From a bacterium (GTDB lineage: Bacteria > Cyanobacteriota > Vampirovibrionia > Gastranaerophilales > Gastranaerophilaceae): a stretch of DNA of 64,000 nucleotides. How positions within the stretch are numbered: the stretch's first letter is position 1; each line of letters opens with the position of its first letter. Both the position numbers and the translations under genes were made by a program. Positions 10,886 through 62,160 of the stretch are shown piece after piece. The notes below the pieces were generated by a model. It made no database searches, was not told the DNA's origin, and worked only from the letters and a program-made list of their open reading frames with translations. The DNA lies in contig JAFUXT010000008.1 of assembly GCA_017470815.1 (NCBI GenBank), positions 1 to 64,000 on the forward strand, written 5' to 3'.

Positions 10886-11358
10886 TATATTTGATAACCG
10901 CAAAGATTACCACAAGAGATAGAAAAATTAAGGTGATTATATATTATTTTACTGTAGCATGTCATTGCGATACAAAGCGAACAGGCGAAATAATAATGAG
11001 CCTTGTGAGCCTGTATGTGTCGGCGAAGCCGTTAACTGCCCGTAGGGCGTGGCAATCCAGCCGTTTAAATTGTTAATAACCCTAAATATCCGAGTTTTCG
11101 TTGAGCAATCCGTTGCCTCCTCGCAATGACAGACATATTACTGTAACTCTGTGTATAGTTACCAAAATCAAAATTTTAATACTAAATTACTAACCAACAT
11201 CAACCATCCACTATTAATTCTCACTATTCACAATAAACACCCCACTTGCATTTTGTAAAATTTGCATGTATAATCGTTGTGAAGGGTGAAGAGATTATAG
11301 ATTTTCAAATTATCTATTAGGTTATTTACAGCCCTTGGAAAGAGATATACTCCGGTAG
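10886..11358. other. Gene-free region between DUF3800 and SNF2 genes
   Basis: This 473-base stretch holds a 172-bp element with terminal inverted repeats at 10960-11131 and, at about 11200-11235, a half copy of the GTGAATAG family (CACTATTAATTCTCACTATT). The 61-codon frame at 10891-11076 runs through the inverted-repeat element and has no ribosome binding site, so I do not call it. Confidence 0.6.
10960..11131. mobile_element. Small element with TGTCATTGCGA terminal inverted repeats
   Basis: TGTCATTGCGA at 10960-10970 and its exact reverse complement TCGCAATGACA at 11121-11131 bound 172 bp with no gene. Inside is GTGGCAATCCAG, a segment that accompanies this kind of terminus in dispersed repeats of many bacteria. 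TTACTGTA occurs on both outer sides (10949-10956 and 11138-11145) and could be part of a target duplication. I infer a non-autonomous MITE-like repeat. Confidence 0.55.
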
Positions 11359-28438: not shown

Positions 28439-28458
28439 TATAATATATGTTATATGCA

Positions 28459-28745
28459 TGTTCATTTCTTTTCTTTTGTTTGCGAGGCAAAAGAAAAGAA
28501 ATGAACCAAAGAAAAGAAAACTTCGCTGATTACAATACCGCCTGCGGCGGCATAAGACTGCTAACGCAGTAATATGTGTTTTCGCCTATCGGCAAAAATC
28601 TCTTAGCGCGCCTAAAACTACGGCGCGCGCTTGAATAACGACCTTTACGCAGTTAGCAATCATTGTTTGCGACACAACAATCGTAAGTTGGGGTTTCTAC
28701 CCCAACATTTATTTTGCTGGGCTGAAAGCCCAACTTACTTATTTG
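28459..28745. repeat. Multi-hairpin repeat module, copy A
   Basis: The first 147 bases match 61675-61821 with three mismatches that I count. In order: an 18-bp perfect hairpin (28461-28478 with 28488-28505), CCGCC/GGCGG, CTGC/GCAG, GCC/GGC with flanking T4/A5, and GCGCGCC at 28606-28612 paired with GGCGCGC at 28622-28628 around a TAAAACTAC loop. After about 28630 it differs from the other copies and ends in a GTAAGTTGGG/CCCAACTTAC stem with an inner GTTGGGG/CCCCAAC hairpin (about 28683-28742). No coding frame or ribosome site is visible. Confidence 0.75.
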
Positions 28746-28752
28746 TATAATA

Positions 28753-30429
28753 TTATACGCAGAGCATTTCTCTCACATTTTTACGCTTAACTTTTAAAGT
28801 TGTTGTTTTTGGCAACGGCTCTTTTGAAATTACAACCGAAGTCGGTCGTTTATACGGTGCAAGTTGCTGAGAGAGAGTTTTGATATCAAGTTTAATCATT
28901 CTGTCAATATCATCATCTGAGTATGTGTTGTACATCTCTGCTTTTGGAACAACAACAGCAGTAACTTCTTCCGCACCGTCTTTAGCCCCGAAATTTCTTG
29001 AAACCCCCAAAACGCAGACTTCTGCAACATAATGACTGTTCTCAAGTACCGATTCAACTTCTTCAGGAAATACTTTTTTGCCTCCCTGTAAAACAATCAT
29101 ATTTTTAATTCTGCCTGTAATATATATATGACCGTCTTTGTCAATTTTTGCAATATCTCCGGTATGCAGCCAGCCGTCTTGGTCAATAACTTCTGCAGTC
29201 ATTTCAGGCTGGTTGTGGTAACCTTTCATAACAGACGGACCTCTTAACCATAATTCACCTGTTGATTCGTCAATCTTTGCTTCAAAATGTCTTAACGGAT
29301 GTCCAACTGATGCGAGTTCGCCGCGCTTGTCGTAATTTACTGATACAACAGGGCTTGTTTCTGATAATCCGTATCCCTGATATACTCTGATACCGATTCT
29401 TTCAAAAAATTCTCCGACCTCAACATCTAACGGCGCACCGCCTGATATACATCCGAAGAATTTTCCGCCCCAACTTTGATGAATTTTTTTGAATAATTTT
29501 CTTCTCATCTTATATGACGGAATAAATTGTGCCGCAAAATACATTATTTTAAATAAAATTTGCACAAATTTCGGTGCGGTAGAAAGTTCTTTTTCTATCC
29601 CTGCTTTTAAAAGTTTTAAAAATGCAGGAACGGCAATCATAAACTGAATACCTTTTTCTTTCATTACCCCTGTGATGTCTTTTGGTTTGAAACTGCTTGT
29701 ATAATAAACCGAAAATCCTGCATTTAAAAATGTAGAAAATCCGACTGTCATTTCAAATAAATGATTCATCGGTAATATTGAAAGCATATTAATTTTTTGA
29801 TTTTTAGGCAGAATAATATCAACAACTTCCATCAAATCAGCAAGTTGGGCATTGACATTCTGGAATGAAATTTCAACACCTTTGGGCGCACCTGTTGTTC
29901 CGGATGTATAAATAATAAATGCCGTTGATTTTGAACTTCTCTGACGCCATTTGCCGTCATAATTGTCAGGGAAATCATAAATATTCTGAACATTTGTATC
30001 ATTTGTATGTTCATCAATCACATAAATATATTTAATTTCCGGAATCATTTTTTGCAATTCGAGTGCTGTCGGCAAATAATGTTGTGATGCAAACATTACT
30101 GTCGGTAAACAATCTGACAGAATAGATTTTAATTCATATTTTGAAAGTTTAATATCCAAAGGAACAGTTGTTGTACCTGTCAAAACAGATGCAAATACAC
30201 ACGCACCGTATTCGGGTTTTGATTCTGATAAAATTGCAAGGCATTCACCTTTTTTGATACCGACATCTTCAATCAGGTGTCTTGCAATTTTTCTTGATAA
30301 AAGCCCAAGTCCTTTGTAAGTAAATTCTTCCCAGCCGTATTGACCTTTTATACCAAGTGCAACCCGTTCTTCGTAATCCGCTGTCTTATTTTGAATATGA
30401 GACAAAATGTGACTATTCCGTAATTCCAT
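28753..30429 (-). CDS. AMP-forming long-chain acyl-CoA synthetase
   Basis: The 558-residue enzyme belongs to the adenylate-forming ANL family. YTSGTTGAPKG (about 172-182) is the P-loop, GYGLSETSPVVS the A5 motif, and WLHTGDIAKIDKDGHIYITGR the A7/A8 hinge region. The C-terminal LPKTTTLKVKR replaces the usual LPKTxxGKxxR, leaving Lys546 as the probable catalytic lysine but without the preceding Gly. It should activate fatty acids as acyl-AMP and then acyl-CoA (or load another carrier) at the membrane. GGGG before a seven-base spacer precedes the ATG. It is transcribed away from recJ from a clear sigma-70 promoter. Confidence 0.9.
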   Translation of the reverse strand: MELRNSHILSHIQNKTADYEERVALGIKGQYGWEEFTYKGLGLLSRKIARHLIEDVGIKKGECLAILSESKPEYGACVFASVLTGTTTVPLDIKLSKYELKSILSDCLPTVMFASQHYLPTALELQKMIPEIKYIYVIDEHTNDTNVQNIYDFPDNYDGKWRQRSSKSTAFIIYTSGTTGAPKGVEISFQNVNAQLADLMEVVDIILPKNQKINMLSILPMNHLFEMTVGFSTFLNAGFSVYYTSSFKPKDITGVMKEKGIQFMIAVPAFLKLLKAGIEKELSTAPKFVQILFKIMYFAAQFIPSYKMRRKLFKKIHQSWGGKFFGCISGGAPLDVEVGEFFERIGIRVYQGYGLSETSPVVSVNYDKRGELASVGHPLRHFEAKIDESTGELWLRGPSVMKGYHNQPEMTAEVIDQDGWLHTGDIAKIDKDGHIYITGRIKNMIVLQGGKKVFPEEVESVLENSHYVAEVCVLGVSRNFGAKDGAEEVTAVVVPKAEMYNTYSDDDIDRMIKLDIKTLSQQLAPYKRPTSVVISKEPLPKTTTLKVKRKNVREMLCV

Positions 30430-61560: not shown

Positions 61561-61674
61561 AAATATATAACCTTTCCAAAAAATAAAATATAACTGATAA
61601 AATTATAACTTAAAAAGAATAAAAAGTATACATAAATAATATTATGCGAATATCACGCTAAGATATTCTTATTA

Positions 61675-61846
61675 TGTTCATTTCTTTTCTTTTGTTTGCG
61701 AGGCAAAAGAAAAGAAATGAACCAAAGAAAAGAAAACTTCGCTGATTACAATACCGCCTGCGGCGGCATAAGACTGCTAACGCAGTGATATGTGTTTTTG
61801 CCTGTCGGCAAAAATCTCTTAGCGGGGCTAAAACAACGCCCCGCGT
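61675..61846 (+). repeat. Multi-hairpin repeat module, copy B
   Basis: Hairpins in order: TTCATTTCTTTTCTTTTG (61677-61694) with its complement (61704-61721); CCGCC/GGCGG (61754-61766); CTGC/GCAG (61774-61785); TTTTTGCC/GGCAAAAA (61795-61814); GCGGGGC/GCCCCGC (61822-61844) around TAAAACAAC. Nearly identical to copy A over 147 bases. Confidence 0.8.
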
Positions 61847-61851
61847 TAACC

Positions 61852-61921
61852 CCTCATCCCTTGGGAGATGGAGCAGTAGTAGGCGAATTTATGAGCCGTA
61901 CAACTGCGGGTGAGGGTGAAA
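61852..61921. repeat. CCCTCACCC-family copy between modules B and C
   Basis: CCCCTCATCCCTTGGGAGAT on the left and GGGTGAGGGTG on the right, with AGGCGAATTTATGAGCC between, link this to the CCCTCACCC and CCCGAA repeat families. Confidence 0.55.
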
Positions 61922-61925
61922 TCAA

Positions 61926-62106
61926 AGGCGCCGTAGTTTTAGGCGCCTGATTGATTTTTGTCCGTAAGGACAAAAACGAACGAACATTTTATACTTATAT
62001 CTTATGCGCGGGGCAATGCCGTCAGGCATTGCAGTGAAATAGCGTATTTTCTCTTTCTTGGTTCATTCTTTCTCTTTTCATCGCAAGAAAAGAGAAAGAA
62101 TGAACA
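61926..62106 (-). repeat. Multi-hairpin repeat module, copy C (inverted)
   Basis: Read on the minus strand the order matches copies A and B: an 18-bp hairpin (62062-62079 with 62087-62104), GCAATGCC/GGCATTGC (62013-62032), TTTTTGTCC/GGACAAAAA (61955-61976), and AGGCGCC/GGCGCCT (61926-61948) around TAAAACTAC. Stem sequences differ from A and B but remain fully paired. Confidence 0.75.
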
Positions 62107-62160
62107 ATAAGTGCGAAATTAAAACCTACTGCCGATAATATTATTTATGTAAACTTGTTC

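Follow-up and report, generated by a model that had tools for sequence, protein, structure and literature searches.

Putative non-coding dif modules in Gastranaerophilales: hairpin arrays that invert between dif-like sites

Xer recombination normally acts on one dif site per chromosome, where it serves dimer resolution, and it is occasionally borrowed by phages and plasmid modules. Here we describe a family of repeated elements that are bounded by inverted dif-like sites and filled with hairpins. They were analysed starting from a 64,000-nucleotide stretch of DNA (the window in the following; GenBank assembly GCA_017470815.1, contig JAFUXT010000008.1), which belongs to a 2.2-Mb rumen metagenome-assembled genome (MAG) of the Gastranaerophilales, referred to as the own genome or G000. 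The elements are probably non-coding dif modules, i.e. hairpin arrays that are inverted by the host proteins XerC and XerD and that are structured as DNA.

Among described systems, the closest likeness is to the dif (pdif) modules of Acinetobacter, segments between inverse XerC/XerD sites that occur as C and D modules on plasmids and chromosomes (PMC13141974, PMC11705084, PMC12907356). Their recombination needs like spacers, inversions take place between like spacers, and one D module without an open reading frame (ORF) has been described (PMC13141974, PMC11705084, PMC12907356). The elements of the present study share with them the inverse Xer sites, the C and D forms, the ATAA-spacer-TTAT motif and inversion between like spacers. 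However, they are hairpin arrays without coding sequence, occur in tens of copies scattered over the chromosome and belong to another phylum. They also stand singly, whereas the Acinetobacter modules form alternating arrays, and the spacers within one element nearly always match, whereas the pairs on A. baumannii plasmids are often divergent.

Three further systems show partial likeness. In the folded attP(+) of CTXphi, two opposite dif-like sites pair in the single strand into one Xer site (PMC3089051). Our elements also have two opposite dif-like sites, and their ends pair in the predicted DNA fold, but they contain no phage genes and their sites lie about 300-700 bp apart instead of about 90 as in CTXphi. 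Intrastrand triplex (PIT) and BoxC repeats are intergenic and present in many copies in many bacteria, and Holder et al. linked them to genome rearrangement (PMC4666352). The elements are likewise intergenic and numerous, and the sequence of one of their hairpins (H1), together with a mirror-repeat purine strand, appears to obey the purine-motif triplex rule. This A/T-rich motif is, however, just one part of dif-bounded elements. The invertons of gut bacteria, finally, are short DNA segments inverting between inverted repeats (PMC11892184). This also applies to the elements, but these form a repeat family at unrelated genes, possess host-dif-like ends and have no known promoter or dedicated invertase.

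Inverted dif-like ends with matched spacers

The initial annotation of the window had described three copies of a multi-hairpin module, at 28459, 61675 and, in inverted orientation, 61926. These copies are real, but three is an undercount: in a search of 59 genomes, the module matched at 26 places in the own genome and 26 of the 59 genomes were positive, and as many as 32 copies could be extracted and inspected in the own genome, whose listed contamination is 7.29% and whose contigs often end within the repeats. Reading outward from the aligned copies, we found that the modules are the interiors of larger elements of about 0.3-0.7 kb (335-700 bp). The initial module boundaries were too small, the modules at 61675 and 61926 being two halves of one element (61630-62150). 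Stems, loops and their order had been recognized correctly, but the main feature, dif-like ends and inversion in place, had been overlooked.

The left end of an element reads TTTACATAA-NNNNNN-TTATCGG (or TTATGCG, TTATAGG or similar) and the right end is its inverse, so that intact elements are bounded by inverted dif-like sites of the form ACATAA-N6-TTAT. This is the layout of an Xer recombination site, with a XerD-side arm, a six-base spacer and a XerC-side arm, and its ATAA-spacer-TTAT core is the conserved motif reported in PMC11705084. The pattern TACATAA-N6-TTATV has 57 matches in the own genome, compared with 9 for the reversed control, and a longer version of the site pattern has 50 compared with 2.

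We compared the two spacers of each of 29 complete elements, taken from five genomes: 26 pairs are identical and three have a single mismatch, although 12 different spacers are in use; when the spacers were shuffled, 3.4 matches were obtained on average and never more than 12 in 20,000 trials. In the own genome alone, the spacers match in 11 of 14 elements (shuffled mean 2.7), a number reached in none of 20,000 trials. Counted over all fetched loci, 70 pairs of adjacent sites lie 150-1100 bp apart: 55 have the XerC arms inside, 14 have the XerD arms inside and one is direct, with unlike spacers. The spacers of the inverted pairs are exactly equal in 63 of 69 cases and differ by one mismatch in five. 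Some of these loci had been picked as inverted pairs, which biases the ratio of 69 in 70, but the unselected lists of two genomes (G043 and G076) agree with it, containing about 27 D-inside and about 13 C-inside pairs and one direct pair with unlike spacers.

The arms of the elements are the same as those of a single-copy site with the spacer TATATA, which occurs about once per genome in most genomes listed, across families of Gastranaerophilales. Since this is what is expected of dif, the TATATA site is probably the chromosomal dif of the order. The spacer TATATA is absent from all 29 elements. Another site, at C83:52138, was considered as chromosomal dif and rejected, its surroundings not being conserved through the site in relatives. 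The own genome encodes two Xer-type recombinases of 304 aa and 290 aa, whose best families are XerD and XerC and which both pass the general NCBIfam cut-off for tyrosine recombinases (NF001399). In their anatomy the elements therefore resemble dif modules in having two complete XerC/XerD-type sites in inverse orientation, arms like those of the putative host dif and a host with two Xer-type recombinases, while the dependence on XerCD and on like spacers is putative. Several tyrosine recombinases of about 180-200 aa are encoded as well (C36:15002, C51:32844 and 34859, C76:8126, C41:9275, C5:35561). A phage contig (G000 C39:37206; L338 around 9706) with a terminase large subunit (phrog_38) carries a dif-like site with the same arms and the spacer TATTTA at a switch of gene direction and GC skew; this phage possibly uses Xer.

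The features of the window are as follows (no strand is given where none applies).

61630-62150: complete element, two modules head to head within inverted dif-like sites (C type), from fold and sequence
61629-61650: left dif-like site with XerD-side arm TACATAA outside, spacer ATAATA and XerC-side arm TTATGCG inside; inverted repeat, arms as in the TATATA site
62131-62152: right dif-like site, inverted, with equal spacer (TATTAT on the plus strand)
61648-61668, plus strand: end hairpin GAATATC..GATATTC, common to many copies
61676-61736, plus strand: hairpin H1 (GTTCATTTCTTTTCTTTTG / CAAAAGAAAAGAAATGAAC), then the mirror-repeat purine strand AAAGAAAAGAAAA (61724-61736)
61754-61844, plus strand: hairpins A (CCGCC/GGCGG), B (ACTGC/GCAGT), C (TTTTTGCC/GGCAAAAA) and the GC-rich D with loop TAAAACAAC, from alignment and pair counts
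61850-61917, plus strand: central CCCCTCATCCC..GGGTGAGGG hairpin, from sequence and fold; it resembles G/C-rich triplex (BoxC/PIT-like) motifs, as a resemblance only
61926-62105, minus strand: second module, inverted, with GC stem, T stem, GCAATGCC stem (62013-62032), mirror strand (62047-62060) and H1 variant (62061-62105)
28460-28628, plus strand: 28-kb module with H1 (28460-28506), mirror strand (28508-28520) and stems A, B, C and D (to 28628)
28439-28458: decayed left end ATAA-TATATG-TTAT of the 28-kb copy
28683-28738: unrelated GTAAGTTGGG..CCCAACTTAC hairpins to the right of the 28-kb module; they form a separate repeat that also occurs alone elsewhere in the genome, where query positions 281-344 match on their own

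The complete element is flanked by a perfect 16-bp inverted repeat (61630-61645 / 62135-62150). Around the 28-kb copy, which is 95% identical to the 61675 copy, no intact ACATAA-N6-TTAT pair was found. Segments related to the central hairpin occur in several other copies.

Inversion in place, rearrangement and distribution

Orthologous elements were matched between genomes by comparison of their flanks, which gave about 11 scorable pairs including the one with RUG12020. At three loci the element is inverted with both ends seen: G003 C6:47700 compared with G015 C13:9875 (score 598 inverted, 91 same), G003 C9:45819 compared with G015 C1:237118 (226 inverted, 47 same) and G000 C77:88700 compared with G003 C13 (318 inverted, 61 same). 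A fourth inversion concerns the window element at 61630 and RUG12020, a MAG whose FtsH protein is, like that of RUG13741, 99% identical to that of the window. Here, one end is seen, the RUG12020 contig stopping inside the element, and the XerC-side arm that forms part of the right end of the window element sits at the left flank instead. The orientation is unchanged at the remaining scorable loci.

At all four inverted loci, the flank, the XerD-side arm and the spacer are fixed, whereas the XerC-side arm and the interior swap sides; in the C77 example, CTATGTAAA keeps its place at the right flank. This places the crossover within the spacer. The junction repeats measure about 16-17 bp and fall below the k-mer lengths usual in assembly, which makes an artefact of assembly unlikely; the inversions are also present in several independent genomes. 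The interiors at one orthologous locus may also differ in content, which suggests cassette exchange.

A rearrangement of about 61 kb distinguishes the own genome from G015. Its breakpoints are two elements of the own genome, C26:21369 and C26:82162, which both have the spacer AACATA and whose outer flanks are connected the other way round in G015. One of the G015 junctions holds a solo dif-like site, TACATAA-AATATA-TTATAAG.

High copy numbers of dif-like sites are found in scattered genomes: 50 in the own genome, 57 in G003 and 35 in G062 within the same genus, 54 in G076 and 32 in G100 from other genera, and 87 in G043 and 19 in G052 from another family, with 0-3 reversed-control sites in these genomes. 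The favoured spacer is specific to the genome (CCCATG in G076, AAACTA in G100, AAAATA in G043). The D-type elements of G043, at about 27 loci (e.g. L368 and L372), have the XerD arms inside, measure about 240-620 bp and nearly all carry AAAATA. The interiors in these genomes are again hairpin arrays with H1-type motifs. When the element was compared by blast with collections of phages and plasmids, nothing matched, and none of the open-access papers searched deals with Xer or invertible DNA in Gastranaerophilales or Melainabacteria.

Folding and covariation of the interior

The stems on which the initial annotation had based its claim of pair-preserving change could all be located. The D stem is GCGCGCC/GGCGCGC at 28606-28628, GCGGGGC/GCCCCGC at 61822-61844 and AGGCGCC/GGCGCCT at 61926-61948; the earlier stem is CCGCC/GGCGG at 28538 and 61754 and GCAATGCC/GGCATTGC at 62013. 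The T-rich stem is present as TTTTTGCC/GGCAAAAA at 61795 and with TTTTTGTCC at 61955, but in the 28-kb copy it has one mismatch (TTTTCGCC). Compared with shuffled sequence, region 28450-28760 folds with z = -7.5 as DNA and -8.1 as RNA, and region 61670-62110 with z = -14.5 as RNA. On either strand, the whole element is predicted to form a single closed structure in which the two ends pair (z about -13 to -14).

Covariation was counted over four stems in 57 distinct copies (1649 cells, which count sequences and not events). Paired cells amount to 95.1%, compared with 90.2 +/- 0.3 after shuffling, cells with double changes to 87 compared with 21.1 +/- 3.3, and the covariation score is 0.167 compared with 0.079 +/- 0.004; slid registers all stay far below. 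Counts of pair types and of pairs with a double change are not clearly above those of the shuffles. Pair-preserving change holds far beyond the three copies on which it had been proposed. Since the covariation is confirmed and there are further copies, the observations that would have refuted the proposal were not made. The additional claim that the folding is kept by selection goes beyond this: covariation is confirmed, but selection is unproven, since template-switch correction of imperfect palindromes yields the same pattern. One-sided (wobble) changes are rare (about 19 of the 1649 cells, 9 of them at a single pair), which points to an interior that is structured as DNA rather than RNA, or to palindromes corrected by template switching.

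The purine strand following H1 is the mirror image of H1's own purine arm. The mirror match has a mean length of 11.0 nt, compared with a shuffled mean of 8.34 and a maximum of 9.5, and the relation extends from this genus to other genera of the family and to another family. With a pyrimidine arm, a purine arm and a mirror second purine arm, H1 has the composition of an intrastrand triplex motif and fits the purine-motif rule. An alternative in which the third strand is the antiparallel partner of the pyrimidine arm fits only weakly and within the shuffled range; the mirror (triplex) relation fits better.

Proposed mechanism and alternative explanations

The ends, the matched spacers, the inversion in place, the XerC/XerD-like genes, the covariation and the mirror repeat can be read from the DNA itself. 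From these we infer that XerCD is the enzyme and that the fold aids synapsis, and we propose how the elements spread. Host XerC and XerD would pair both sites of one element and exchange strands within the spacer, by which the interior would flip. Spacers that are unlike that of the chromosomal dif (TATATA) would spare the element recombination with dif, and the inverted orientation of the sites would spare it self-deletion, as direct pairs would delete themselves. The hairpins and the triplex-like H1 motif most likely act as DNA, forming cruciforms or single-strand folds that would join both ends; alternatively, they might make a folded single strand accessible, by analogy with CTXphi. In an extension of this idea, which we regard as possible but doubtful, the elements would be mobile without a transposase: the inverted ends of the folded single strand would pair into a double-stranded dif site for host XerCD, comparable to attP(+) of CTXphi or attC of integrons, the hairpin and triplex array would serve as scaffold, and several Gastranaerophilales lineages would have undergone separate expansions with private spacers.

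Inversion by host XerCD is the best supported explanation, since it covers the dif-like arms, the matched non-dif spacers, the inverted orientation and the observed inversions. Several points nevertheless weigh against it. The matched spacers could stem from selection on end pairing without recombination. The TATATA site of the own genome (C15:17719; L339 around 9721) lies inside a 423-aa ORF, which is unusual, and its identity as dif is for this reason only putative. The 304-aa and 290-aa proteins score just below the XerC and XerD equivalog cut-offs, and with 12 PF00589 loci in the own genome, another tyrosine recombinase could replace XerC/XerD. The informative empty sites disagree as well, as they show a solo dif-like site (G015 C8), no clear site, or an extra outer inverted repeat (C36:61848), and how the elements insert is not settled by them. 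At G003 C14:32369 and at G000 C44, C26, C11, C40 and C36:25258, the relatives are too diverged or have other content, and no clean junction was found.

The elements might instead be ordinary miniature inverted-repeat transposable elements (MITEs), with terminal inverted repeats used in trans by a DDE transposase and a likeness to dif due to chance or capture. Inverted ends, a high copy number, mosaic interiors and the lack of genes would suit such an origin, and so would a subclass with the spacer AAAATA (C36:61848 and others), whose members have a further inverted repeat, TGTACATGTCAAGYAATTA, on the outside and for which G003 offers one almost clean empty site (GTCATT/ACGAGC). True MITEs, here called R2, also exist in these genomes. 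We consider this origin unlikely, because the 6-bp spacer varies between elements yet matches within them, the arms equal those of the putative host dif, C-inside and D-inside forms both exist, and an element can be inverted at one locus while flank and outer arm remain unchanged. The comparisons of empty and filled sites gave no consistent target-site duplication, and no autonomous transposase copy with the same ends was met among the fetched loci, although no dedicated search was made. Marginally less probable still is that the elements are invertons that switch neighbouring genes, perhaps by means of a small FimB-like recombinase. They do invert in place, they lie close to genes (in gaps that are tandem in 20, divergent in 7 and convergent in 1 case), and tyrosine recombinases of about 190 aa are encoded. 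However, against a background of 511 tandem, 158 divergent and 133 convergent gaps the positional bias is modest, the interiors differ at the same locus, a promoter is undemonstrated, and dozens of near-identical copies adjoin unrelated genes, the window copy adjoining ftsH/gcvT.

That the covariation is functionless, with template switching perfecting the palindromes and assembly error or strain mixture explaining the remainder, is very improbable. It would account for the C-G to G-C swaps in stem D (33 versus 23 copies), which have almost no intermediates, and the listed contamination and the contig ends within repeats would be in its favour. It does not account for spacers that match between ends about 500 bp apart, and the short junction repeats and the independent genomes in which inversions occur, mentioned above, speak against assembly error. 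We give even less credence to a structured non-coding RNA family or an array of terminators. Folding and covariation are strong, and the initial annotation had left open whether folding takes place as RNA or as single-stranded DNA. The folding stands, but the paucity of wobble intermediates, the occurrence of both orientations at orthologous loci, the nearly equal folding of both strands and the absence of Rfam matches at gathering cut-offs in the window narrow it towards DNA.

If the elements are indeed dif modules inverted by host XerCD, tens of dif-like sites, with a separate spacer for each pair, are tolerated on one chromosome and are active enough for elements to flip between close relatives. 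They would offer a natural test of partner choice by XerCD and a route for genome rearrangement, as in the 61-kb case, and possibly represent a way for selfish DNA to use a housekeeping recombinase. They would also place intrastrand-triplex repeats, which are widespread without an assigned function, inside a recombination element.

R2 was also considered as a carrier of the elements and rejected, since it is a separate MITE with 8-bp duplications and no complete copy found held a dif-like pair. It has the ends GGTAACTATATACAATGTTACAG and their inverse, with a REP-like GTCATTGCGAGG inside. Many copies exist in G003 and G015, several of them with AT-rich target duplications of 8 bp and one inside a dif-like end (L361); the window contains a copy at 10931-11163.
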